From Desulfobacterales bacterium (GTDB taxonomy: Bacteria; Desulfobacterota; Desulfobacteria; Desulfobacterales; JARGFK01): a DNA stretch of 37,478 nt. The stretch is from the NCBI GenBank assembly GCA_029211065.1, contig JARGFK010000040.1, positions 1 to 37,478 on the forward strand, read 5' to 3'. Within the stretch, counting starts at the first letter, position 1. Each line of letters begins with the position of its first letter. Shown one piece after another: positions 8,635 to 21,545 of this stretch. Below the pieces are notes generated by a model. The model was not told the origin of the DNA, did no database searches, and was given only the letters and a program-made list of their open reading frames with translations. The position numbers were made by a program, and so were the translations under genes.

Positions 8635-10023
8635 TCAGATATTATCCAGGTCCGGTGTTAAATCAATCCCATACTTTTTCATACGGTTCCAAACCGTTAC
8701 ACGATTCACTCCCAGGATTCGGGCCGCCTGGGACTGATTGCCTTTGCTCCGGCGTAATGCCGTAACCAGAGCTTTTTTTTCAGCTTCGTCTTTTCGACCG
8801 GGCACAACAAACGACCCCGTTTTTTGCCCCGCGCCATTTCTGATCTGAAGGGGCAAATGTTCCGGCTTTACCAACCCCTTGGCAGAGACAACAAAGGCAT
8901 ATTCCAGCGCGCTTTTCAACTCCCTGACATTTCCGGGCCAATGATAGGCCATGAAAAGGCCCATCGCTTCCGCTGACAGTCCGGCAATACTCTTTTCGGT
9001 TCGGGTGTGCAGTTGCTGGATGAAGTGATTCACCAGCAGGGGAATATCTTCTCGTCGATCCCGCAGCGGAGGGATGTGGATCGGAATCACATTGATACGG
9101 AAAAAAAAGTCCTCTCTGAACTTTTTTTGCGCCATCAGTTCACCCAGGTCCTTATTTGTCGCCGTAATGATCCTGACATCCACTGAAATGGGCCGGTGGT
9201 CGCCCACCCGATCAAACTGCTTGGTTTCCAGAACCCGCAGCAGCTTCACCTGAATGGAAAGCGGCACATCGCCGATCTCATCTAAAAAGAAATCCCCGCC
9301 GTCGGCAGCCTCAAAACGCCCGAGACGATGGCGGTAAGCTCCGGTAAAGGCGCCTTTGATGTGGCCGAACAGCTCGCTTTCCAGCAGCGACTCATTTAAT
9401 GCGGTACAATTGAGTTGGACGAAAGGTCCTTTTTTTCTTCTGCCCAGATGATGAATGGCAAGCGCCACCAGTTCCTTGCCTGTACCGCTTTCACCATAAA
9501 TGATAACCGGCGCATCGCTTTGAGCGGCTTTGGGAATCACATCAAACACGTTCTGCATGGCCGCCGATTTGCCGACAAGGCCGTGAAACCCGCTGCCTTC
9601 ATCCATCTGCCGGGTAAGAAGATCGAGTTCCTGGTCCAACCGGTTTAATTCTGATATATCCGTGAGTGTTTCAACCGCCCCCAGATTCGCGTTATCGTCA
9701 TCTTTTAATAACGAAGCGTTTTTTATTATCTGCAGGTAGGTACCGTCCTTTTTCATTACCAGGCAGTTTTTGGTAATATCTTTTCCGCCGGCAAACAGGG
9801 TGCACCAGTGACCATTGCCTGCTTGCAACGTAATTTCACAGCCGTCACAATTGAGCATTTTACAGGACCTTCCCAGCACCTCTTCAGATGAATATCCGGT
9901 CAGGCACTCAAATGAGTGGTTTACCATCAGAATCGTTCCATCCGGGCTGATTACCAGCAAGCCTTCATTCATGGTGTTGATAATTTTTTTCCAGTAGCGG
10001 TTTGATTCAAGATCTTTCATCAT
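8635..10023 (-). CDS. Sigma-54-dependent transcriptional activator, PAS-AAA-Fis
   Basis: An enhancer-binding protein of 462 aa. An N-terminal PAS domain (about 12-125) senses the signal; it is cysteine-rich, with Cys40, 54, 59, 62, 74 and 87, which points to a redox, metal or FeS-type input. The AAA+ domain follows with Walker A GESGTGKE, the sigma-54-contacting GAFTGA loop, Walker B FFLDEIGD and an arginine-finger region. The C-terminal Fis-type HTH is NQSQAARILGVNRVTVWNRM. There is no receiver domain, so no partner kinase is required. AAGGA sits 2 bases before the first ATG and 5 before the second (10020), which may be the true start. It is divergent from the respiratory operon at 10236, with a sigma-54-like promoter and palindromes between, so it is the likely activator of that operon. 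Confidence 0.92.
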   Translation of the reverse strand: MMKDLESNRYWKKIINTMNEGLLVISPDGTILMVNHSFECLTGYSSEEVLGRSCKMLNCDGCEITLQAGNGHWCTLFAGGKDITKNCLVMKKDGTYLQIIKNASLLKDDDNANLGAVETLTDISELNRLDQELDLLTRQMDEGSGFHGLVGKSAAMQNVFDVIPKAAQSDAPVIIYGESGTGKELVALAIHHLGRRKKGPFVQLNCTALNESLLESELFGHIKGAFTGAYRHRLGRFEAADGGDFFLDEIGDVPLSIQVKLLRVLETKQFDRVGDHRPISVDVRIITATNKDLGELMAQKKFREDFFFRINVIPIHIPPLRDRREDIPLLVNHFIQQLHTRTEKSIAGLSAEAMGLFMAYHWPGNVRELKSALEYAFVVSAKGLVKPEHLPLQIRNGAGQKTGSFVVPGRKDEAEKKALVTALRRSKGNQSQAARILGVNRVTVWNRMKKYGIDLTPDLDNI

Positions 10024-10463: not shown

Positions 10464-10550
10464 TGTTGTCGCATGACCCTACCGGTCCCATTTCCACAGA
10501 CGGATTCACGCTCAAAGGCAACCATTATCGTCAACAAACAGGAGTTTTCT

Positions 10551-11495
10551 ATGGAGATGAATAGAAGGCGCTTTCTAAAAATATCCGGGGCGCTGGCTGC
10601 GACACCGCTACTGAATCAGGCTCGCACCGCCCATGCTGAAAAAGTGCCGGCTTTATCCACAGAATCATATGGGTCTCTGGTGGACACAACCCTGTGCGTC
10701 GGCTGCCGCCAGTGCGAACAGGCCTGCAACCAACGCCACGGCTTGGCCAAACCGCATGAATCGTTTAGTGAAATGACGGTTCTGGAAAAAGAAAGGCGGA
10801 TGGATGAAACCACCTATACCGTGGTCAACAAGTATTACCCCAAAACCATCGGTTCCCTGACCTGGCGCACACGGCCCACCTTTGTCAAGTTGCAGTGCAT
10901 GCACTGCAACGACCCCTCCTGTGTCTCCGCCTGTATCGTGGGGGCCTTAACCAAAGAGTCCAACGGCGCGGTGATCTATAACGCCAAAAAATGCATCGGC
11001 TGTCGCTATTGCATGGTCGCCTGTCCCTTCCAGGTCCCGGCCTATGAGTATCACAACCCCCTGACTCCGCAGGTGCGAAAGTGTACATTCTGCTTTGAAA
11101 ACATTAAAGTCGGCGGGCTGCCGGCCTGCGCCCAAACCTGCCCGCGGGAAGTGATCACTTTCGGAAAAAAGGCGGATCTTTTATCTTTGGCCCGCTGGAA
11201 GATGAAGAACAACCCCGGCAAATATGTGGATCACATCTACGGCGAACATGAAGTCGGCGGCACTTCCTGGCTGTATCTGGCGTCCGAACCATTTGAGACC
11301 ATCGGATTTCCCAAGATCGGGACCAAAGCGCCGCCGCGGCTGACCGAGGCCATCCAGCATGGTCTCTTTCAATTCTTTGCAGCCCCGATCATCTTGTTCG
11401 GACTTCTGGGCGGCACGATGTGGTTTACCGGTTTTTACAAGAAAAACAACCGGCCCTCCAAGGATAATCCCCTTGCGAAAGGAGACGTGTCATGA
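10551..11495 (+). CDS. Tat-exported four-cluster ferredoxin subunit with C-terminal anchor (HybA/DsrO-like)
   Basis: The start at 10551 follows AGGAG and gives a twin-arginine signal peptide (NRRRFLKISGALAATPLL, cleavage near AHA). The mature part holds four ferredoxin-type cysteine groups: CVGCRQCEQAC, CMHCNDPSCVSAC, CIGCRYCMVAC and CTFCFENIKVGGLPACAQTC, expected to bind four [4Fe-4S] clusters in the periplasm. A hydrophobic C-terminal segment (LFQFFAAPIILFGLLGG) should anchor it to the membrane, as in HybA. The product (314 aa) would pass electrons between the NrfD/HybB-type membrane protein encoded next (four-base overlap) and periplasmic partners. The longer reading from 10473 would bury the Tat motif and is rejected. 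Confidence 0.9.
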   Translation: MEMNRRRFLKISGALAATPLLNQARTAHAEKVPALSTESYGSLVDTTLCVGCRQCEQACNQRHGLAKPHESFSEMTVLEKERRMDETTYTVVNKYYPKTIGSLTWRTRPTFVKLQCMHCNDPSCVSACIVGALTKESNGAVIYNAKKCIGCRYCMVACPFQVPAYEYHNPLTPQVRKCTFCFENIKVGGLPACAQTCPREVITFGKKADLLSLARWKMKNNPGKYVDHIYGEHEVGGTSWLYLASEPFETIGFPKIGTKAPPRLTEAIQHGLFQFFAAPIILFGLLGGTMWFTGFYKKNNRPSKDNPLAKGDVS

Positions 11496-14400
11496 ATGCT
11501 CATGAAATCGCAGCGCCGGTTGAAGAAAAATTTCTGACCCCCGGTGTCATGGTCATGCTGGGGTTCATCGCCATCGGGCTGGCCTTTACAGCCGCCCGTT
11601 TCATATTCGGCATCGGGGCTGTTTCCAACCTCAACAATCAATACCCCTGGGGAATCTGGATCGGTGTCGATGTCGCTTCCGGCGTCGCCCTGGCCGCCGG
11701 CGGTTTTACCACCGGCCTGATCGCCTATGTCTTTAACCGGGAACAGTACCATGCCGTTATCCGACCGGCCCTGCTGACCGCCATGTTGGGATATACCTTT
11801 GTGGTTCTGGGACTGCTCGTGGATATCGGCCGGTATTGGAACATTACCAGTCCTGTCTTCAACCACAACAGCAGTTCCGTTCTATTTGAAGTCGCCATGT
11901 GCGTCATGATCTATCTGCATGTTCTCTATATTGAATTTATCCCCATCGTGGTGGAACGTTTCAAGGGCCGGGTCAATCTTCCGGGTCCCTTTGCAAAGGC
12001 CAATGGGCCCATTGAAACACTGCTGGAAATTGCCGACCGGATCCTTGACAAGGTCATGTTCCTTTTTATTATTGCCGGTATCGTTCTTTCCTGTCTGCAT
12101 CAATCCGGCCTGGGCTCGCTTATGTTGATAGCGCCCTACAAGGTCCATCCCCTGTGGTACACGCCCATTCTGCCACTGCTGTTCCTGCTGTCCGCCTTTG
12201 CCGCCGGTTACCCCATGGTCACCTTTGAGTCCATCATCGTTGCCAAATCATTCGGCCGAAAACCGGAAATGGAGGTACTCACCCCGCTGGCCAGATTCAT
12301 GCCGCTGTTCATGGGGACCTACCTATCGTTTAAAATCGGAGATATGCTGGTGCGCGGCACCTATATCTATCTGCTGGACGGCACCTATCAGACCAATTCG
12401 TTTCTGGTTGAAGTCCTTGTGGGCGTTGTGCTTCCCTTTGTCTTGCTGATATTCAGAAAGGTCCGACAATCACCGGGCTGGCTGTTTTTCGCATCCATCG
12501 TCTTTGTTCTGGGGATTCTGCTGAACCGCATCAATGTTTTTGTGGTCAGCTTTACCCCGCCGTACAAGCTGGTCTCCTATTTCCCCTCCGTGGGCGAAAT
12601 GTTTATCACAGTGGGATTGATTGCCGGCCTGATGTTTCTGTACCGCGTGTGTGTATTTATTTTTCCGGTCCTGGGCGCCGTTCCCAAGAAAATTTCAACG
12701 GCAGCCCTGATCCTGATGGCCGCATCTATTCTTTTTGCGCCGGCGAACCCAGTCCAGGCGGCCGGCCCCCGCGCGACAGCTAAAACCCCGATAGCACCCA
12801 TAACCGAACCCACGCCGTCTATTGCCGACGCGCCCAAGCTGCAGATCCTCAACAGCCCCATCATCAGCCAATACAGCGATATCTACGAACCGGTCCGGTT
12901 TATGCACAGCAAGCATGCCAATGTTCTCCAGGACTGCTCCATCTGTCACCACCGCATTCCCCGGGAAAAAGGAGATAAATACGGTGAGCCGGTCAACCTG
13001 GCAAAACTGCGCGAAAAGGAAGCTATCCCGACGTCCTGCTCGGTCTGCCATGATCACCCGTTTAATCCCAAACAGCTGCATACCCCCGGCTTGAAAGGCG
13101 CCTATCATCAGCTCTGCATGGACTGCCATCAGGAGTCGGAACAGGTGCCCCATATCCGCGGACCCATTCTATACAGCGCCATGGTCCGGGGGCCGATTGC
13201 GCGAACGCTGGATACCCGAGCCCCCACAGACTGTCTGGCCTGTCACCCCAGGAAGGTTCCCGACCATAAAAACCTGGTAAAGCTGGAAGCGGGCGTCGAC
13301 CCCATCACGGTGACGAAAAACTGCCTCTCCTGTCACGAAAATGAAGGCAAGGCCATCCTCAAGACCGCCCACTGGAACTGGCAGGGACCGTCGCCCTATA
13401 CCGTCGGGCATGAAAAACGGGTTGATCTCGGCAAGCGGCACAACACCGTCAACAATTTCTGTATCAATCTCAACGGCAACTGGCCGCGCTGCACCAGCTG
13501 CCATATCGGCTACGGCTGGGAAGATGAAAAATTTGACTTTAATGATATGACACGAATCGATTGTCTGGTCTGCCACGACACCACCGGAACATACCAGAAG
13601 GCGCCGGCGGCAGCGGGCTTCCCCGCCAAAGGCGTCGACCTGGTCGCAGTTGCCCGCAATGTGGGCCGCCCCAGCCGGGATACCTGCGGTACCAATTGCC
13701 ATTTCCAGGGCGGCGGCGGCGATGCGGTCAAGCATGGCGACCTGAATTCCACCCTGGCCAAGCCCACCCGATCTCTTGACGTTCATATGGGCACGGACAA
13801 AGGCGGTCTGGATTTCAAATGCCAGACCTGTCATAAAACCCGCAACCACATGATCTCCGGGCGCAGCATTTCGGTTGCCGCATCAGAGGGCGACCTGTCC
13901 TGTGAATACTGTCATACCGATAAACCCCATATCGAAAGCCAGATGGTCGATAACCATTTGAATAAGCATACGGCCCACGTTGCCTGCCAGACCTGCCATA
14001 TCCCTATGTATTCCAAGGGAACGCCCACCAAGGTCCACTGGGACTGGTCCACCGCCGGCCAGGATATTGATCAGCCCAAAGACCCCTATGGCAAACCGGT
14101 CTATGCAAAAATGAAGGGAAGCTTCCGCTGGAAGCAGGCAGCCAAGCCTTCCTATTACTGGTACAACGGAACGGTCAAACGCTATCTGCTGGGCGACCGC
14201 ATCAATGAATCCGGTGTTACCGAGCTGACCAAACCCATGGGAAGTGCTGCAGACAGCGCCTCCCGGATATACCCGTTTAAAGAGCACACCGGACGCCAGA
14301 TCAGCGACTCGGTCTATAAATACCTCATCGCACCCAAGCTCTGGAAAGGTTACTGGAAAGACTGGGACTGGGATAAGGCCGCCAGGGAAGGGATGCAGTC

Positions 14401-14752
14401 AGCCAATCTGGCCTATAGCGGCAAATATGAATTTGTGGACACGGTGATGTACTGGGGCCTGACCCACGAGGTGATGCCCAAAGAGCAGGCCCTTTCCTGC
14501 GCCCAGTGCCACCCCTCCCTTGCCAAGGCACCCTACTGCGGCAGCTGCCATCAGGAAAGAAACGGCGTCGACTTTAAGGCCCTGGCAAACAAAGGAATCG
14601 ATTTTAAAACCCTGCCGGTCAAAAGTGCGGAAATTGCCGCCCAGATCGGAAAAAGCAATTACATAGATTTTAAATCTCTGGGGTATCCCGGCGACCCGGT
14701 TGAAACCGGCGGCAGGTTTAAAAAGCTGACCCTGGGAAAAGCGCATCCGTAA
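11492..14752 (+). CDS. NrfD/HybB-type quinone-interacting membrane protein fused to a 13-haem, octahaem-tetrathionate-reductase-like cytochrome c
   Basis: A 1086-aa fusion. Residues about 15-395 are a polytopic NrfD/PsrC/HybB-like membrane domain (N-terminal GIGAVSNLNNQYPWGIWIG and GLLVDIGRYWNI are typical), which exchanges electrons with menaquinone. Residues about 399-424 (KKISTAALILMAAS to NPVQA) look like a complete signal peptide now used as the last membrane segment. Residues 482-1020 are periplasmic and carry twelve CxxCH motifs plus one CGTNCH (Cys732). The first few haems resemble a class III cytochrome module. The rest, with NCHFQGGGGDAVKHGDL, resembles the octahaem tetrathionate reductase (OTR) family. 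It overlaps the ferredoxin gene by four bases. It probably links the quinone pool to the molybdoenzyme and may itself reduce or oxidise a sulfur or nitrogen compound. Confidence 0.9.
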   Translation: MNAHEIAAPVEEKFLTPGVMVMLGFIAIGLAFTAARFIFGIGAVSNLNNQYPWGIWIGVDVASGVALAAGGFTTGLIAYVFNREQYHAVIRPALLTAMLGYTFVVLGLLVDIGRYWNITSPVFNHNSSSVLFEVAMCVMIYLHVLYIEFIPIVVERFKGRVNLPGPFAKANGPIETLLEIADRILDKVMFLFIIAGIVLSCLHQSGLGSLMLIAPYKVHPLWYTPILPLLFLLSAFAAGYPMVTFESIIVAKSFGRKPEMEVLTPLARFMPLFMGTYLSFKIGDMLVRGTYIYLLDGTYQTNSFLVEVLVGVVLPFVLLIFRKVRQSPGWLFFASIVFVLGILLNRINVFVVSFTPPYKLVSYFPSVGEMFITVGLIAGLMFLYRVCVFIFPVLGAVPKKISTAALILMAASILFAPANPVQAAGPRATAKTPIAPITEPTPSIADAPKLQILNSPIISQYSDIYEPVRFMHSKHANVLQDCSICHHRIPREKGDKYGEPVNLAKLREKEAIPTSCSVCHDHPFNPKQLHTPGLKGAYHQLCMDCHQESEQVPHIRGPILYSAMVRGPIARTLDTRAPTDCLACHPRKVPDHKNLVKLEAGVDPITVTKNCLSCHENEGKAILKTAHWNWQGPSPYTVGHEKRVDLGKRHNTVNNFCINLNGNWPRCTSCHIGYGWEDEKFDFNDMTRIDCLVCHDTTGTYQKAPAAAGFPAKGVDLVAVARNVGRPSRDTCGTNCHFQGGGGDAVKHGDLNSTLAKPTRSLDVHMGTDKGGLDFKCQTCHKTRNHMISGRSISVAASEGDLSCEYCHTDKPHIESQMVDNHLNKHTAHVACQTCHIPMYSKGTPTKVHWDWSTAGQDIDQPKDPYGKPVYAKMKGSFRWKQAAKPSYYWYNGTVKRYLLGDRINESGVTELTKPMGSAADSASRIYPFKEHTGRQISDSVYKYLIAPKLWKGYWKDWDWDKAAREGMQSANLAYSGKYEFVDTVMYWGLTHEVMPKEQALSCAQCHPSLAKAPYCGSCHQERNGVDFKALANKGIDFKTLPVKSAEIAAQIGKSNYIDFKSLGYPGDPVETGGRFKKLTLGKAHP

Positions 14753-14852: not shown

Positions 14853-15182
14853 ATGATTCGACGATTGGGTTCCGCTTTAATTCTTTTGGTCTTTTTAATC
14901 GGCGCGGTCGGGCTTGCCCTGGCCGCCGGCGACGGCAATGCCCGCAAGGGAAAATACCTTTTTCGTAAAAACTGCCGGACCTGCCACATCGACGGCGGAT
15001 CCGCCAAGCCCCTCAGTCCCATCGACAAGACCCAGGCAAAGTGGGACGAGGTATTTAAAAACATTGAAAAGCTGCCCTGCAAGGACAAGTGGAGCGCCCT
15101 GTCGGAAAAGGATATTCAGGATATGTATGCGCAGCTCTGGGGTCATGCCTTTGACTCTCCCTCACCGGAAAAATGCGAGTAA
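14853..15182 (+). CDS. Monohaem cytochrome c, periplasmic
   Basis: A 109-aa protein with an N-terminal signal peptide (LILLVFLIGAVGLALA) and one haem-binding motif, CRTCH, placed early in the mature chain (KGKYLFRKNCRTCHIDGG), as in class I cytochromes. The distal ligand cannot be assigned with certainty; no Met follows in the usual place apart from DMYAQLW near the C-terminus. Two further cysteines (LPCKD and the C-terminal KCE) could form a disulfide. A strong ribosome-binding site, AAGGAGG, precedes the ATG. It lies between the octahaem fusion and the molybdoenzyme and is the natural soluble electron shuttle between them. Confidence 0.88.
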   Translation: MIRRLGSALILLVFLIGAVGLALAAGDGNARKGKYLFRKNCRTCHIDGGSAKPLSPIDKTQAKWDEVFKNIEKLPCKDKWSALSEKDIQDMYAQLWGHAFDSPSPEKCE

Positions 15183-15197
15183 TTTGGAGTATTGAAA

Positions 15198-17396
15198 ATG
15201 CCAGTAAAAACCAAAGGTGCGCTAACCCGTCGCAGGTTCATGCAGCTTACCGGCGCGGCTGCTGCCGGGGCGGCTGTCGGCGGCCAATCCCGGATCTTGC
15301 ATGCGCTGGTATCCAAAACAGCAGGAGATTCCAAAGCGCGCATTGAAAGGAAATTCTCCATCTGCGACATGTGCTTAAACAAGTGCGGTCTGATTGCCCG
15401 GGTGGACCCATACGGTGTGGTCAAAAAACTGGACCCCAATCCGAAGTTCTTAAAATCCCGGGGCATGCTGTGTGCCCGGGGCAATGCCGGCATCCAGCAG
15501 CTCTATGACCCCGACCGGCTGAAATATCCCCTCCTCAGAAAAGGAGAAAGGGGCCAGGGCCGTTGGCAGCGACTCACATGGGACCAGGCCCTGGACCATG
15601 CCGCTGAACAGCTGGGGCGCATCGCCGAAAAGTACACCCGCTGCGGCGTTCTGTTTATGGCCGGATCCGACCTTCAATCCACATTTGTCCACCGCTTTGC
15701 CAATGTCTTTGGATCGTACAATGTCGTATCGCATGAATCCAACTGCCTCTTGAGCCTCAACCGGGCATTTCTGGACACATATGGCGAAATCCCGATTCCC
15801 GACATGCTCAACTGCAAATATGTCATCATGGCCGGCGCCAACCGCTTCGAGGCTTTGGTTACACCGGACAGCATCGATCTGATGACGGCCATGCAGAACG
15901 GCTGCAAGCTGGTGGTCCTTGATCCCCGCTTTACCAAAACAGCGGCCCTGGCGAGCGAATGGTTCCCGATCCGGCCGGGGACCGACATGGCCTTTTTCCT
16001 GGCCATTGCACATGTATTGATCACTGAAAAACTGTACGATCCCAAGTTCATTGCCGAAAAAACATTCGGTATCGAACAGCTCAGCGCCCATGTCAAACCC
16101 TACCCGCCGGAATGGGCTGAAAAAGAATGCGAAATCCCGGCCGGCGATATTCGCCGCATGGCACGGGACCTGGCTGCAGCCGCGCCTGCGGCCATGGTCT
16201 ATCCGGGACGCAGAAGCTCCGACTACGAAAACTCCACTCAGATCCGCCGATCCTTTGCCATTGTCAATGCGCTCCTGGGAAACTGGGATCGCCCCGGCGG
16301 CCTGACGGCGGCCAGAAAAATCGGCATCAAATCCGTGCCCTATGATCCGCCCTTTTATGAGGACAACCCCGAAAAAAGGATCGATGCCGACCGGTCCGTG
16401 ATGATGTTCGAGGAGGAGGGCTCTTTTAAGCACGCCCGGGATGCCGTCATTGAAGGAAAGCCTTATCCGGTCAAAGGTTTTTTCACCTATAAGATCAACC
16501 CCATGCAAACCGGCGCCAACCGCAGCAAAACCATCGAAATGATCCACACGCTCGATTTCATGATGACCGTGGATATCGCCATGAGCGACACCGCCTGGAT
16601 GGCGGATCTGGTCTTGCCGGCCCCCAGCTATCTCGAAAGAGAGGACCCGGTGTCTGCGCTGCAGGGTTCTTCGGCCTGCGCCTGTATGGTCATGCGCGAT
16701 CCGGTGGTTCCGGCGCTGTTTGAATCCAGACCGGTTTTCTGGATTGTCACCGAGCTTTCCAAGCGCCTGGGCTTGGGTGAGCACTTCAACTACACCCTGG
16801 CGGACTACCGCAAAAAACAGCTGGAAGAGCTGCCCGATGCCATGGATGCCCTGCTGAAAGACGGCGTTTATTACAATCCCGGCAAGCTCTATGGCGTCTA
16901 TGAAGGCAAGGTTTTTAAAACCCTTTCAAAAAAAATTGAAATTTACAACCAGCGTTATGCTGACGCCGGCATCGATCCACTGCCGGTATACCAACCCCCC
17001 CAGCAGGTTCCTGAAGGAAAGTTTCGCATCGTGGTGGGACGCAACGCTTATATCACCCAGGGCTCTTCCACCAATAATGAACTGCTGCACGAACTGCTGC
17101 CTGAAAACGCCCTGTGGATACACCCCAAACCGGCCGGCCGGCTGGGAATCAAGCAGGGCGATTCCGTCGCGGTTACCAGCCCGGTAGGCAAAGGCATCCT
17201 CAAGGCTCATGTCACCCAGGAAACCCGCCCCGATACGGTTTATATGGATTCCGGGTACGGCGCCCTGTCAAAGGGCCTGACCCATGTTTTCGGCCGGGGA
17301 GCTTGCATTGCAGACATCCTTGAAGACTATAACGATAAGATTTCAGGGAATATGGCCATGCATCAAACCATGGTCACGGTCAGAAAGATAAAATAG
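15198..17396 (+). CDS. Molybdopterin oxidoreductase catalytic subunit, PsrA/PhsA-like
   Basis: A 732-aa bis-MGD enzyme exported by Tat (TRRRFMQLTGAAAAGAAVGG). CDMCLNKC plus the later MLCARGN gives the four cysteines of the N-terminal [4Fe-4S] cluster. SHESNCLLS places a Cys at the Mo-ligand position, as in polysulfide/thiosulfate reductase (PsrA/PhsA) and not Ser (DMSO reductase) or Asp (NarG). The C-terminal domain shows the MGD-binding pattern, with GRNAYITQGSSTNNELL. The start at 15198 (ATG) follows GGAG with eight bases between; the TTG at 15192 is rejected. Likely substrates are polysulfide, thiosulfate or tetrathionate, but related enzymes also handle arsenate or arsenite, so the substrate is open. 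The chaperone is probably the TorD-like protein at 19804. Confidence 0.9.
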   Translation: MPVKTKGALTRRRFMQLTGAAAAGAAVGGQSRILHALVSKTAGDSKARIERKFSICDMCLNKCGLIARVDPYGVVKKLDPNPKFLKSRGMLCARGNAGIQQLYDPDRLKYPLLRKGERGQGRWQRLTWDQALDHAAEQLGRIAEKYTRCGVLFMAGSDLQSTFVHRFANVFGSYNVVSHESNCLLSLNRAFLDTYGEIPIPDMLNCKYVIMAGANRFEALVTPDSIDLMTAMQNGCKLVVLDPRFTKTAALASEWFPIRPGTDMAFFLAIAHVLITEKLYDPKFIAEKTFGIEQLSAHVKPYPPEWAEKECEIPAGDIRRMARDLAAAAPAAMVYPGRRSSDYENSTQIRRSFAIVNALLGNWDRPGGLTAARKIGIKSVPYDPPFYEDNPEKRIDADRSVMMFEEEGSFKHARDAVIEGKPYPVKGFFTYKINPMQTGANRSKTIEMIHTLDFMMTVDIAMSDTAWMADLVLPAPSYLEREDPVSALQGSSACACMVMRDPVVPALFESRPVFWIVTELSKRLGLGEHFNYTLADYRKKQLEELPDAMDALLKDGVYYNPGKLYGVYEGKVFKTLSKKIEIYNQRYADAGIDPLPVYQPPQQVPEGKFRIVVGRNAYITQGSSTNNELLHELLPENALWIHPKPAGRLGIKQGDSVAVTSPVGKGILKAHVTQETRPDTVYMDSGYGALSKGLTHVFGRGACIADILEDYNDKISGNMAMHQTMVTVRKIK

Positions 17397-17409
17397 AAGG
17401 AAGTTGCCC

Positions 17410-18045
17410 ATGAGCCAGGACCGATCGAAACGATATGCCATTGTGATTGACACCTTTAAATGTTTTGACTGCAAGGCCTGCATGATTGCCTGCAAGGTTG
17501 AAAACAACGTTCCCAAAGGTTTCTGGCGAAACTGGGTCCGGCATACCGGCGGAATCGGCGGCCGCAGAACCCAGTACCAGCCCGGCCAGTGCATGCAGTG
17601 CGACAAACCGTCCTGTGTATCGGCCTGCCCGGTGAACGCCACTTACAAGCAGTCTAACGGCATCGTGGCCATCGATCCGACCAAATGCATCGGCTGCGGC
17701 AATTGCGTCACAGCCTGCCCCTACGGCGCCCGCTATCGCAACCCTGCCAGCCGCTTCGCCGATAAATGTGATTTTTGTCAGCACCGCTTAAGCCGTGGAG
17801 AAGAACCGGCCTGCGTCGAGACCTGTCCCACCCGGGCCCGCACTTTCGGAGATCTGAATGATCCCACAAGCACAATCAGCGAACTGGTCAAGCATAAAAA
17901 ACTGGTACAGGTGATCAACCCCAAAATAGATACCCAACCGGGAATCTTATATTTTTCAGGGACGCTGCCCCTGGACTGGCCGGTGGAACCGACCCTGCCT
18001 GGCGGTATCCATATGCCGGAAAAATTCTGGAAAACGTCGGAATGA
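17410..18045 (+). CDS. [4Fe-4S] electron-transfer subunit, PsrB/DmsB-like
   Basis: A 211-aa protein with four ferredoxin cysteine groups (CFDCKACMIAC, CMQCDKPSCVSAC, CIGCGNCVTAC and CDFCQHRLSRGEEPACVETC), the standard arrangement in PsrB, DmsB and NrfC. It has no signal peptide, so it should be exported by riding on the Tat signal of the molybdoenzyme encoded 13 bases upstream. The start at 17410 (ATGAGC) follows AAGGAAG; the TTG at 17404 is less likely. The C-terminus (LDWPVEPTLPGGIHMPEKFW) is typical of this subunit. It receives or donates electrons at the molybdoenzyme and should contact the NrfD domain or the cytochromes. Confidence 0.92.
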   Translation: MSQDRSKRYAIVIDTFKCFDCKACMIACKVENNVPKGFWRNWVRHTGGIGGRRTQYQPGQCMQCDKPSCVSACPVNATYKQSNGIVAIDPTKCIGCGNCVTACPYGARYRNPASRFADKCDFCQHRLSRGEEPACVETCPTRARTFGDLNDPTSTISELVKHKKLVQVINPKIDTQPGILYFSGTLPLDWPVEPTLPGGIHMPEKFWKTSE

Positions 18046-18129
18046 TTTACGTTCGAAAAGGGTCCGGCTGAAATGACCCGATTCTGATAATTGGTCAATC
18101 ATTATTTTAACAACAAAAGGAGGTAACGT

Positions 18130-19272
18130 ATGATGAGTAACAGCAGAATGAACTGGCTTCCCCTGCTCATAGTGATCGTCTTGGCTATGGGACTTGGGAA
18201 CGCCGCCATTGCCGCTGCTTCCGCGGAAGCCGGCAGTGTACAGACCGAAGCATGGATGTTCCATGACATTGTGACGGTTGAATTTGTGCAGCCGTATGTG
18301 AAAGTGCCCCCGCCTGAAAACGCCCTGCTCATTGATTCCAGGCCGAAACGGGCAAAATATGACAAGGGACACATCCCCATGGCAATCAATATTCCCGACA
18401 GTCAGTTTGAAAAAATGACCGACAAGCTGCCCCAGGATAAAGACACCCTTTTGATTTTCTATTGTGAAGGGATGAAGTGAAAGCTGAGCCACAACTCAGC
18501 CTGGAAGGCTGAAAAGCTCGGATACAAAAACGTCAAAGTCTTTGCCGAAGGATTCCCCAAATGGGAGAAAGTTCAAGGCAACTATCCGGCGATATCTACG
18601 GATTACATGAAAAAACTGATCGACACCAAGGCCGATATGGTCTTGGTGGACTCACGACCCAAACGTTCAATGTACGACAAGGGCCATATTCCCACTGCCA
18701 TCAGCATCCCTGACAGCGAGTTCGACAAGTTAAAAGACCAGCTGCCTCAGGACAAGGAAAAACAGCTGATTTTTTACTGTGAAGGGTTTAAATGCAAATT
18801 GAGCCATAATTCCGCCGCCAAGGCCATTGGGCTCGGCTACAAGAACGTAGCCGTCTATGCGGCCGGTTACCCTGCCTGGAAAACGCTTGATGCCGATTCT
18901 GCTGAAGAAGCAAAAAAAATGGCCGCTTCGATCAAACCCGGCAAGGAGGAAGGGAGTATCGATGTGGCCGTGTTTGAAACTATCATCGAAGAAAAACCGG
19001 AAAGCATCATTCTGATCGATGTCCGCGACCCGGATGAGTTTAAAGCCGGCAGTTTCGAGACCGCCATTAACGTCCCCACCGACAAACTGGAAGAAAAGAT
19101 CAAAACCCTGTCGGAAGAAAAGCCGGTCGTCTTCATCTGTTCAACCGGCGCCAGAAGCGGCGAGGCCTATTATATGGTCAAAGACCTGCGTCCGAAATTC
19201 AAGGATGTATATTATCTGGAAGCAGAGTTGACTTTCAACAAAGACGGCTCACATAAAATAACCAAAAAATAA
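18130..19272 (+). CDS. Exported three-domain rhodanese with in-frame TGA read as selenocysteine (Sec117)
   Basis: Read through the TGA at 18478-18480 this gene encodes 380 aa: a signal peptide (about 1-30), two closely related rhodanese domains and a third, more divergent one. Domain 1 reads YCEGMK-TGA-KLSHNSA; domain 2 reads YCEGFKCKLSHNSA, so the TGA aligns exactly with Cys222. The sequence after the TGA stays homologous to domain 2 (LGYKNVKVFAEGFPKWE against LGYKNVAVYAAGYPAWK), which rules out a normal stop. Active-site cysteines are Cys112, Cys217 and Cys337 (FICSTGARSG). The SD is AGGAGG. The TGA is followed at 18486-18519 by a SECIS-like hairpin. Rhodaneses move sulfane sulfur; this one should work in the periplasm with the molybdoenzyme system. 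If the TGA were a stop, only a 116-aa truncated first domain would be made. Confidence 0.85.
18478..18480 (+). other. Putative selenocysteine codon (TGA) in rhodanese domain 1
   Basis: This in-frame TGA follows GGG-ATG-AAG and precedes AAG-CTG-AGC. In the second domain of the same protein the matching codon is TGC (18793-18795). The neighbouring rhodanese gene has TGA at the same alignment position. Recoding as Sec is inferred from these alignments and the following hairpin. Confidence 0.82.
18486..18519 (+). promoter_or_regulatory. Bacterial SECIS-like hairpin downstream of the TGA at 18478
   Basis: The upper stem TCAGCC (18496-18501) pairs fully with GGCTGA (18507-18512) around the loop TGGAA, whose second base is G, as bacterial SECIS elements require. 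A lower stem GAGC (18486-18489) with GCTC (18516-18519) adds four pairs. The loop begins 21 bases after the TGA, within the usual window. A competing hairpin, GCTGAG (18483-18488) with CTCAGC (18495-18500), is also possible. Confidence 0.6.
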
Positions 19273-19347: not shown

Positions 19348-19821
19348 ATGAAACTTTTGCAGACTCTGAAAGGCTTTTTTGTCCTGATCATCCTTTGCGG
19401 ATATGTTCCCGGCGCCGGGGCCGCTGAAAATTCCGTATGGTGGGAAAGGGCCGAAATTGTCGCCCGGCAGGAAGGCTATCATCTCGTTACGCTACAACAG
19501 CTCCAGGCGCTCTATGGCACACAACAAAATTTCCTGATTGTCGATGTCCGGCCGGACTACGAATTTAAGGAAGGCCATCTACCCCGGGCCATCCAGATCG
19601 AATTCAGTCCCGCTGACCGGTACAATCTGAAACCCGACAAGCGAGACCGTTTTGAAAGCGTCCTCGGTTCGGATAAAAACCGCAGGATTATTATTTACTG
19701 CCTGAACTACAACTGAGCCCGGAGCGAAATTGCCGTCTACTGGGCCGTGCGCCTGGGTTATAAAGATGTCAGCAGGTTTGTCGCCGGTTACCAGGGGTGG
19801 ATCTCAGTTCCGCTCCCATAG
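19348..19821 (+). CDS. Exported single-domain rhodanese with in-frame TGA read as selenocysteine (Sec123)
   Basis: Read through the TGA at 19714-19716 the product has 157 aa and ends at TAG 19819-19821. It has a signal peptide (LKGFFVLIILCGYVPGAGA) and one rhodanese domain: LIVDVRPDYEFKEGHLPRA, then IIYCLNYN-TGA-ARSEIAVYWA and LGYKDVSRFVAGYQGW, the typical C-terminal end of the fold. Active-site Cys118 and Sec123 are five residues apart, the same spacing as Cys112/Sec117 and Cys217/Cys222 in the upstream protein. Stopping at the TGA would delete the last helix and strand that every rhodanese needs. A hairpin with GT in its loop follows at 19740-19756. The final 18 bases overlap the end of the convergent torD-like gene. 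No strong ribosome-binding site is seen. Confidence 0.8.
19714..19716 (+). other. Putative selenocysteine codon (TGA) in the single-domain rhodanese
   Basis: The in-frame TGA follows AAC-TAC-AAC and precedes GCC-CGG-AGC. It stands at the Cys+5 position that is Cys or TGA in the neighbouring rhodanese domains. The frame continues with rhodanese sequence for 34 more codons before TAG. Confidence 0.78.
19740..19756 (+). promoter_or_regulatory. Bacterial SECIS-like hairpin downstream of the TGA at 19714
   Basis: CTGGGC (19740-19745) pairs with GCCTGG (19751-19756) through four Watson-Crick and two G-T pairs around the loop CGTGC, which has G at position two followed by T as in well-studied bacterial SECIS loops. 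The loop begins 29 bases after the TGA, inside the usual range. The stem is weaker than that of the upstream gene. Confidence 0.42.
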
Positions 19822-20472
19822 CTTCCCGCTTCCAAAACCGGCAACCCAATCTAATATCAAGACCAGCAGACGGGATGCCAGCGGATAGAAACGGCAGGCG
19901 GTTTCCTGCTGCAGCCGCCCGGCAAATACAGAAACCCACGGCAGCATCGTCCCGGCGGCAAAAGATCCGGCTTCATATAAAACGGACCCCTTTGGGCGGC
20001 TCCCGCTTTTGTCCAGCAGAAAATAAAGATATTCCATCTCAATGCAAAGATGGTCCGGCGGTTCGGTTATTGTTTCCGCAAGGGTTAAACCGCTGGATTC
20101 AAACCTATTTTTCATTTTAACGGCTGAAGCACCCATCAGGGGTGCGTTTTCGTATTCATAGCAGGACTGATAAAGCGGTGCCTGAATGCCTCCCTTGGCG
20201 TTGATAAAGAGCCGGACGAACGTTTCTGCCAGCTGGCGGCAAAGCAGATCGGCATCACCGAAATCTTCTGGAAAGGCCTTTATCTTCTGCAGGGGATCGG
20301 CGAACTCACCGGTCATAGCCGGTTTAAGATTTTCAAACGGAAGGAAAAAGGAGCCCGCTTTCATTGCCGCGCAATCGTCGGGATCCGGCCCCCAGAATAT
20401 TCGGCATATCGTCTTGATGGCGGACAGAAGGTCCTCTTGATGACGCCGGGATAATGCGGATGCTGTTTTCAT
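19804..20472 (-). CDS. TorD/DmsD-family molybdoenzyme chaperone
   Basis: A 222-aa all-helical cytoplasmic protein of the TorD/NarJ type. The pattern EMEYLYFLL in the middle and LPWVSVFAGRLQQETACRFYPLA towards the C-terminus matches the family's E-x-x-Y...FL and hPWhxxFxxxl...YxxhA signatures. Such chaperones bind the Tat signal of a bis-MGD enzyme and help cofactor insertion before export; the obvious client is the PsrA/PhsA-like protein at 15198, whose operon converges on this gene from the opposite strand. The two 3' ends overlap by 18 bases if the second rhodanese reads through its TGA. Its promoter would lie in the 128-base gap shared with the divergent FmdE-like gene. Confidence 0.82.
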   Translation of the reverse strand: MKTASALSRRHQEDLLSAIKTICRIFWGPDPDDCAAMKAGSFFLPFENLKPAMTGEFADPLQKIKAFPEDFGDADLLCRQLAETFVRLFINAKGGIQAPLYQSCYEYENAPLMGASAVKMKNRFESSGLTLAETITEPPDHLCIEMEYLYFLLDKSGSRPKGSVLYEAGSFAAGTMLPWVSVFAGRLQQETACRFYPLASRLLVLILDWVAGFGSGKLWERN

Positions 20473-20600: not shown

Positions 20601-21182
20601 ATGGATGTTGATACACCTTCTTTTACTATCTGCGGCCGCTCACCGCAAGAATTTTTAGATGCCATCGAAAACTTCCACGGATGGAAAGCCCCCGGCATCG
20701 TCCTGGGCGGGTTTATGGTTGACTGGGCCCGGGAACTTTTCGGACCGGACGTTGAAGCCGACGCCATCGTGGAAACCACCCACTGCCTGCCGGATGCCGT
20801 CCAGCTGTTTACGCCGTGCACCTTCGGCAACGGCTGGCTGAAGGTTCTGGATTGGGACAAGTTTGCCTTAAGCCTGTACGACCGATACAGCCTGAGCGGG
20901 TACCGGGTCTGGCTGGATCTTGAGAAAACCCGCGCGGTAACCGACCTTTACGACTGGTATATGCGCCGGAAACCCAAAAAAGACCTGCCCCTGGATGTAT
21001 TGCTCAACGCTATTTTCACGGCACGACGATCCATTTTATCATCACGGACTATCCGAATGAAACAACTTTACCAACGTAAGAAGAAGGGACAAATTGAGAT
21101 CTGCTCCGGATGCGGGGAAGCATACCCCGCCGCCCAGGGCCCCCGATGCACGGCCTGTCAGGGTGAAGGATACTTTGAATAA
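20601..21182 (+). CDS. FmdE-like protein with C-terminal zinc ribbon
   Basis: A 193-aa protein. The N-terminal part reads FHGWKAPGIVLGGFMVDWA, which aligns with the FHGHxCPGLxxGxRxA signature of FmdE (a protein found in molybdenum formylmethanofuran dehydrogenase operons and near other molybdoenzymes), but the usual second His and the Cys are replaced by Trp and Ala. TPCTFGNGWLKVLDWDKFAL corresponds to the family's second signature. The C-terminus carries CSGCGEAYPAAQGPRCTAC, a four-cysteine zinc ribbon. FmdE biochemistry is not settled, though a metal-binding or molybdenum-cofactor-related role is often supposed. It is next to the TorD-like gene, consistent with a link to the molybdoenzyme operon. 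Confidence 0.75.
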   Translation: MDVDTPSFTICGRSPQEFLDAIENFHGWKAPGIVLGGFMVDWARELFGPDVEADAIVETTHCLPDAVQLFTPCTFGNGWLKVLDWDKFALSLYDRYSLSGYRVWLDLEKTRAVTDLYDWYMRRKPKKDLPLDVLLNAIFTARRSILSSRTIRMKQLYQRKKKGQIEICSGCGEAYPAAQGPRCTACQGEGYFE

Positions 21183-21230
21183 AAACTGACCCAAAACCAC
21201 CACAGCAAACATGTCAAACAAGGAGGGGTT

Positions 21231-21545
21231 ATGTATCTGCCGAAGATATATGAAAATTTTTCAACAAATTTTCCGGAAGTTTTCAAAGACTACAAGCAGC
21301 TGGGCATCTCCTGTCGGGATGCCGGCCCCCTGGACCCCAAAACGCAGAATCTTATCAAACTTGGGATTTCCATCGGCGCAAATTCCAGAGGCGCCATCAT
21401 GTCTCACACCCGAAAAGCGCTGTCATCCGGGGCTACCGCTGAAGAAATTATCCACAGCGTTCTGCTGGCGCTGACCACCACCGGTTTTCCGAACATGATT
21501 GCCGCCATGGGATATGTGAATGAGGTTCTAAAAGAAGACCCCTGA
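21231..21545 (+). CDS. AhpD-like (carboxymuconolactone decarboxylase family) protein without CxxC
   Basis: A 104-aa helical protein: LDPKTQNLIKLGISIGANSRGAIMSH followed by TRKALSSGATAEEIIHSVLLALTTTGFPNM matches the CMD/AhpD fold. In the redox-active members two cysteines (CxxC) precede the conserved His of the second helix. Here that segment is RGAIMSH, so no disulfide chemistry is expected, and the protein resembles the many uncharacterised CMD-like proteins. A very strong ribosome-binding site, AAGGAGGGG, precedes the ATG. It follows the FmdE-like gene by 48 bases and may share its transcript. Confidence 0.8.
   Translation: MYLPKIYENFSTNFPEVFKDYKQLGISCRDAGPLDPKTQNLIKLGISIGANSRGAIMSHTRKALSSGATAEEIIHSVLLALTTTGFPNMIAAMGYVNEVLKEDP

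Follow-up and report, generated by a model that had tools for sequence, protein, structure and literature searches.

The window, that is, the whole 37,478-nucleotide stretch analysed here, corresponds to contig 40 of a draft assembly (269 contigs, 4.94 Mb). It carries a gene cluster that starts with a divergent PAS/sigma-54 activator (8635–10023, minus strand), which lies beside the rhodanese in most homologous loci. On the plus strand follow an HmcB/HybA-like 4Fe-4S subunit with a Tat signal (10473–11495), an NrfD membrane protein fused to an octahaem tetrathionate-reductase-family cytochrome (11492–14752; one 1086-residue ORF with 12 CxxCH motifs), a small c-type cytochrome (14853–15182), a PhsA/PsrA-like molybdopterin oxidoreductase (15192–17396), a 4Fe-4S electron-transfer subunit resembling TtrB, NrfC and DsrO (17404–18045), and two rhodanese genes. 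A convergent gene for a TorD/NarJ-type molybdoenzyme chaperone (19804–20472, minus strand) completes the order. The octahaem protein belongs to the TIGR04315 family (530.4 bits, cut-off 375); the molybdoenzyme reaches 535.9 bits against the PhsA equivalog NF012032, under the cut-off of 694, and is PhsA-like rather than PhsA.

The first rhodanese gene (18130–19272, plus strand) has a clear Shine–Dalgarno sequence, AGGAGGT, at 18118–18124, and its product begins with a signal sequence. In the ORF analysis, the initial frame (18130–18480) closes with the TGA at 18478–18480; with this codon read as U117, the frame stays open to the TAA at 19272 and gives 380 residues. The first ATG past the TGA, at 18607, has no Shine–Dalgarno sequence upstream. 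The protein scores 173.5 bits against PF00581 (gathering threshold 22.2) in three stretches, and profile search and AlphaFold place the rhodanese domains at about residues 45–150, 151–258 and 276–372. In each, an active-site cysteine opens a six-residue loop (C112, C217 and C337). The first-pass annotation had placed the TGA inside one polypeptide and opposite a cysteine of the tandem copy, and both points hold. Over 81 residues, domains 1 and 2 share 70% identity (BLOSUM62 score 320, against at most 48 in 200 shuffles), and the part of domain 1 that follows the TGA is by itself 69% identical to its domain-2 counterpart over 29 residues. The internal alignment, YCEGMKUKLSHNSA against YCEGFKCKLSHNSA, pairs U117 with C222, whose codon is TGC. 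With U or C at exactly these two columns in 86 homologous loci, this pairing goes far beyond chance.

The active-site loop of rhodaneses comprises six residues counted from the persulfide cysteine; thiosulfate cleavage depends on the last, which is as a rule Arg or Thr/Ser (RDL2; PMC8533005). In the window protein, the loops read CEGMK-U in domain 1, CEGFK-C in domain 2 (18778–18795, Cys217 to Cys222) and CSTGA-R in domain 3 (19138–19155, Cys337 to Arg342), the last being a canonical rhodanese loop. Cys112 (18463–18465), invariant in the three-domain family, is the expected persulfide carrier of domain 1. Comparison of the loops shows Sec117 to be the sixth, loop-ending residue, five after C112, and not the persulfide cysteine; the pair is thus C-x4-U in domain 1 and C-x4-C in domain 2, and domain 3 has an ordinary C-x4-R arrangement. 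The AlphaFold model (mean pLDDT 82.9, pTM 0.55) contains three rhodanese domains whose relative placement is unreliable, and puts residues 112–118, with U117 past C112, in a strand-to-helix loop.

Homologues came from one scan of named genome contigs and from searches of genomes of the same order (291) and phylum (395). In 86 loci (83 different sequences), both loop sites were readable, and their states at sites 1 and 2 were Cys/Cys in 63, Sec/Cys in 10, Sec/Sec in 13 and Cys/Sec in none. Some genes are counted twice among these loci; the distinct ones are 10 Sec/Cys and 11 Sec/Sec genes in 21 genomes. The homologous proteins run full-length, with Cys/Sec exchange at residue 117, which the first-pass annotation had named as a check; the layout of Sec, Cys and standard domains that it took to be unusual is one of three family states (CC, UC and UU), not a fixed arrangement. 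When the two columns are left out of the tree, at least seven changes are required at site 1 and at least four at site 2. The matches found outside the order are all Cys-only. As most homologues carry Cys at the Sec site, Sec is not essential to function.

Positions C112, 117, C217, 222 and C337 are invariantly thiol or selenol in a 29-row alignment. The Sec-form domain-1 loops follow C[GEQ]x[PLM][TK]U, and domain 3 mostly reads CxTGAR. In seven close pairs of Sec genes, dN/dS is well under 1 (about 0.05–0.2) both before and past the TGA. Two divergent relatives (L118 and L119, from genomes G120 and G083; 35–36% identity) keep CGGPTU in domain 1 and CQTGAR in domain 3 and have lost the domain-2 site; this pattern suggests that it is the domain-1 pair that matters. 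Within the compared region, a single in-frame TGA lies beyond the two loop columns. It is an extra N-terminal codon in L068, which reads TDTSUKFH where relatives have TSWKFH with a conserved Trp, and it is probably a TGG-to-TGA error or mutation in that metagenome-assembled genome. A Cys-form copy near an octahaem cytochrome (L037) lies on a contig labelled Rhodocyclaceae; horizontal transfer or misbinning is possible. No plasmid or phage match covers most of the three-domain protein, and an origin from such elements was rejected on this ground.

A bacterial SECIS element is recognised here as a hairpin about 16–37 nt past the UGA that has G among the first two bases of its apical loop. Such a hairpin spans 18478–18527 on the plus strand, with a lower stem at 18482–18489/18516–18523, an upper stem at 18496–18501/18507–18512 and an apical GG at 18503–18504, 22 nt past the TGA. 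Nearly all Sec codons in the three-domain gene are followed by a hairpin of this kind, with its apical GG 22–23 nt from the TGA, and the stem covaries. With at least five of six stem pairs and GG at +22/+23 demanded, and both sites pooled, the element occurs in 29 of 31 Sec and 5 of 124 Cys sequences. Taken separately, and with relatedness ignored in the Fisher tests, it follows site 1 in 19 of 20 different Sec sequences versus 5 of 57 Cys sequences (p 1.5e-12), and site 2 in 10 of 11 versus 0 of 67 (p 9e-12). Mean folding z-scores for Sec versus Cys are −3.45 and −1.35 at site 1, and −2.52 and −0.42 at site 2. The window's own Cys copy in domain 2 has no comparable hairpin (z of −0.98, versus −2.80 at the Sec site).

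The element also leaves its mark on the protein and on synonymous positions. The eighth residue past Sec is Trp or Arg (TGG, AGG or CGG) in 30 of 31 Sec sequences and mostly another residue in Cys forms, owing to the GG requirement of the SECIS. At the synonymous positions +18 and +30, nearly all site-1 Sec forms pair C-G, U-A or A-U, and more than half of the Cys forms have no pair there. Across 17 different Sec sequences, 88% of cells are paired, none of 500 shuffles reaches the covariation score, and all slid registers of the alignment do far worse than the true one. A SECIS-like hairpin is kept in five Cys forms (L020, L022, L026, L044 and L059); these few cases may be relics of Sec-to-Cys reversion.

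All of selA, selB, selC and selD are present in the genome, with matches of 610.3 bits for SelA, 391.6 bits for SelB and 77.2 bits for tRNA-Sec. SelD is encoded three times, each gene having one in-frame TGA (genome G000, C7:48811-49737, C26:15131-16048 and C37:30071-30988); three copies per genome seem unusual, and the contamination of the assembly is estimated at 4.3%. Several genes in the neighbourhood of the three-domain rhodanese close with an ordinary TGA stop, so the genetic code is not reassigned; these stops, together with the Cys in homologues, rule out UGA as a codon for tryptophan or another reassigned residue.

Presence of tRNA-Sec does not discriminate between Sec genomes (20 of 22) and Cys-only genomes (29 of 37; Fisher p = 0.29), because nearly the whole clade decodes Sec, and this contrast was dropped as proof of Sec. 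SelA occurs in all tested genomes that are at least 90% complete, and the two Sec genomes lacking a tRNA-Sec match are 79–80% complete. Loss of Sec decoding in Cys genomes such as G185 was rejected, as SelA is present. The Sec assignment made in the first-pass annotation is thus borne out by the decoding genes, the Cys/Sec exchange and the SECIS hairpin, alongside an in-frame UGA with homology on both sides and Cys homologues at the same column. Judged from sequence, 18130–19272 almost certainly encodes one exported three-domain rhodanese in which UGA codon 117 directs Sec insertion by SelB and tRNA-Sec at the SECIS hairpin.

A second Sec rhodanese, overlooked in the first-pass annotation, adjoins the first. 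This exported, single-domain protein (19348–19821, plus strand; 157 residues) has its in-frame TGA at 19714–19716 (Sec123, loop CLNYNU), in the context IIIYCLNYNUARSE, and shares the CxxxxU motif with domain 1 of the three-domain gene. Sec is assigned because ten loci have TGA at the same column, Cys relatives exist (L039 and L081–L084), and homology continues through the codon. The SECIS is less clear: most members show no significant fold, and a good GG-loop stem is seen only in L075 and L076. A scan of the window for TGA-interrupted frames found, besides the three-domain gene, only apparent ordinary stops or antisense frames; it was not exhaustive, as its composition and length filters missed this second rhodanese. 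Homologues are often longer, the window copy ending past the rhodanese domain, and their extra C-terminal stretch reads as possibly thioredoxin-like. The second rhodanese accompanies the molybdoenzyme layout in the window, in L026 and L039, and in L151, which has no three-domain gene.

Two layouts recur around the three-domain gene. The window-type arrangement is found again in, for example, L021/L136, L140, L146 and L148, while most loci have a shorter one, made up only of the regulator, a cytochrome c, the three-domain rhodanese and the octahaem cytochrome. Of the loci with enough sequence to judge, nearly all contain the octahaem cytochrome, the small cytochrome c and usually the sigma-54 regulator; the molybdoenzyme is confined to a subset. 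The constant partner is therefore the tetrathionate-reductase-family octahaem cytochrome, and the molybdoenzyme operon, to which the first-pass annotation had tied the protein, is a true setting in the window and that subset but not the conserved one. One genome (G286) has both: its copy in the molybdoenzyme operon (L102/L148) is Sec/Sec, and that in the short octahaem layout (L149) is Cys/Cys. The NrfD–octahaem fusion of the window is also seen in L146. Further along the window, 20601–21545 encodes FmdE-like and carboxymuconolactone-decarboxylase-family proteins, and both recur by the rhodanese in L021.

Sec-containing rhodaneses are known as a kind, TsoB included. A review of 2026 lists five forms, namely UxxS, UxxG, CxU, UxxG and UxxxxU/TsoB (PMC13188914), in agreement with what the first-pass annotation says of selenoproteome surveys; no three-domain form is among them. 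Forms 1–4 share with the window protein a rhodanese domain in which Sec aligns with Cys. Form 1 (UxxS, type WP_010941598) may share the Sec column of the three-domain rhodanese: UKLS in this gene and UARS in the second fit its motif, the comparison being with the printed motif only. The CxU form, rhodanese_LYCAU (NF041203), gives 82.5 bits, under the cut-off of 115, and the window protein has C-x4-U rather than C-x-U. TsoB (NF045694), the rhodanese/DsbD fusion-like protein of the 'three selenoprotein operon', is the top NCBIfam match of both Sec rhodaneses (128.9 and 96.3 bits) and likewise has Sec five residues past the first loop residue (UxxxxU; PMC13188914). However, TsoB includes a DsbD-like part and has Sec at both ends of the loop (positions 1 and 6), whereas the window protein has Cys at position 1 (CxxxxU, not UxxxxU), three rhodanese domains and no DsbD; its 128.9 bits are far under the 805-bit cut-off and cover only positions 39–175 of 572.

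Among solved structures, Foldseek places multi-domain rhodaneses and single rhodanese domains nearest, the top matches including E. coli YnjE (PDB 2wlr and 3ipo), EanB (6ktx), a PA protein (1yt8) and a Francisella protein (6mxv). YnjE, an exported three-domain rhodanese, and the other multi-domain proteins lack Sec and are about 15–22% identical to the window protein; we know of no CxxxxC/U loops in YnjE, EanB, 1yt8 or 6mxv. The top PDB sequence match is Bacillus halodurans BH2092 (3nhv and 3o3w), whose C-x4-C loop YCWGPAC aligns with YCEGMKU; it differs in being a single-domain Cys form of unknown function. Domain 3 matches Wolinella Sud (1qxn; E 7e-6), a Cys-only, single-domain dimer that is a periplasmic polysulfide-sulfur transferase encoded beside a polysulfide-reducing molybdoenzyme, and for which, to our knowledge, no octahaem partner is known. 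A CxxxxU loop, a three-domain build, a chain with zero to two Sec and a link to an octahaem cytochrome are undescribed in the literature searched, the scope of which excluded the TsoB-defining papers and early surveys.

The multi-haem cytochrome next to the three-domain rhodanese is one feature pointing to a role in sulfur respiration. A useful but distant parallel is found in Dethiobacter, where an octahaem cytochrome gene is clustered with rhodanese genes and upregulated in thiosulfate respiration (PMC10376724). The literature yielded no biochemistry of any member of the three-domain family. On balance, the Sec rhodanese probably works by a redox C-x4-U mechanism, either reducing persulfides in the periplasm or serving as a partner that delivers sulfur to an octahaem sulfur-compound reductase. 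In a tentative scheme, domain 3, with its Arg, would take up sulfane sulfur from thiosulfate, polysulfide or the product of neighbouring reductases; Cys112 and Cys217 would be loaded as persulfides, by domain 3 or by free polysulfide. Attack of Sec117 (or Cys222) on the persulfide would release HS− and leave a selenylsulfide (or disulfide), to be re-reduced by the adjacent cytochrome c and the octahaem cytochrome. Sec would make the sulfide-release step faster, and the downstream single-domain protein, with its own C-x4-U pair, would perform the same chemistry with the molybdoenzyme branch. This full sequence of sulfur loading, Sec attack and re-reduction by cytochromes, which we infer, is plausible but somewhat less secure than the general role.

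It is less likely, though still to be weighed seriously, that the CxxxxU loop serves solely in transfer or storage of sulfane sulfur, with Sec as a better nucleophile or leaving group in an interdomain relay and no net reduction. The classical rhodanese is a sulfurtransferase with a ping-pong persulfide mechanism (PMC8533005), the site of domain 3 has the canonical form, and persulfide-carrying multi-domain enzymes, EanB and YnjE for example, are among the nearest folds. Against simple transfer, redox-active proteins account for most occurrences of Sec (PMC9312934), the gene has electron-transfer cytochromes as its constant neighbours, and the two invariant chalcogen residues, spaced five apart, look like a redox pair.

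It is improbable that the substrate is a different oxyanion of the periplasm, be it selenite, tellurite, arsenate or nitrite/hydroxylamine, in place of sulfane sulfur; in that case, the Sec protein would be a detoxification or assimilation factor of the octahaem/molybdoenzyme system. In its favour, enzymes of the OTR family reduce nitrogen compounds in vitro. Rhodanese genes also lie in selenite- and tellurite-linked cytochrome clusters of Geobacter (ExtH/ExtI; PMC5877670); yet the PhsA-like, TtrB-like and tetrathionate-reductase-family neighbours and the three rhodanese domains of the window indicate sulfur.

Far less probable again is a selenium-dependent switch, in which UGA would yield a 116-residue domain-1 fragment without selenium and the full protein with it. 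Such a product would keep the signal peptide and most of domain 1, but the stop falls inside the active-site loop, so that the fragment is unlikely to fold as a rhodanese domain, and the Cys-only and Sec/Sec relatives reflect ordinary Sec/Cys exchange. That the TGA is an ordinary stop or a sequencing error, that the gene is a pseudogene, or that a second gene begins at ATG 18607 has next to no probability. TGA does terminate several neighbouring genes and the draft lies in 269 contigs, but the recurrence of the same TGA with its SECIS in 20 other sampled genomes, purifying selection past the TGA and the missing ribosome-binding site before 18607 refute such readings for the family; the first-pass annotation had argued from homology against a normal stop.

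Returning to the redox reading, it can be extended, more speculatively still, to the origin of the protein as a respiratory persulfide reductase made from rhodanese domains. Replacement of the loop-ending Arg by Sec or Cys may have turned a sulfurtransferase site into a redox one that is recharged by the octahaem cytochrome. Domain 1 would have acquired Sec before domain 2 did, under matching SECIS elements in the tandem repeat; the order is proposed because UC and UU forms occur in this sample and CU never does.

The three-domain rhodanese adds to the bacterial selenoproteome a clear Sec/Cys-exchanging family with an internal duplicate. Annotation pipelines that stop at TGA will truncate its Sec-form genes. 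The natural CC, UC and UU series on one scaffold could be used to measure the benefit of selenium in sulfane-sulfur chemistry, and the family links Sec rhodaneses to the octahaem tetrathionate-reductase-type cytochromes of sulfur-metabolising Desulfobacterota.
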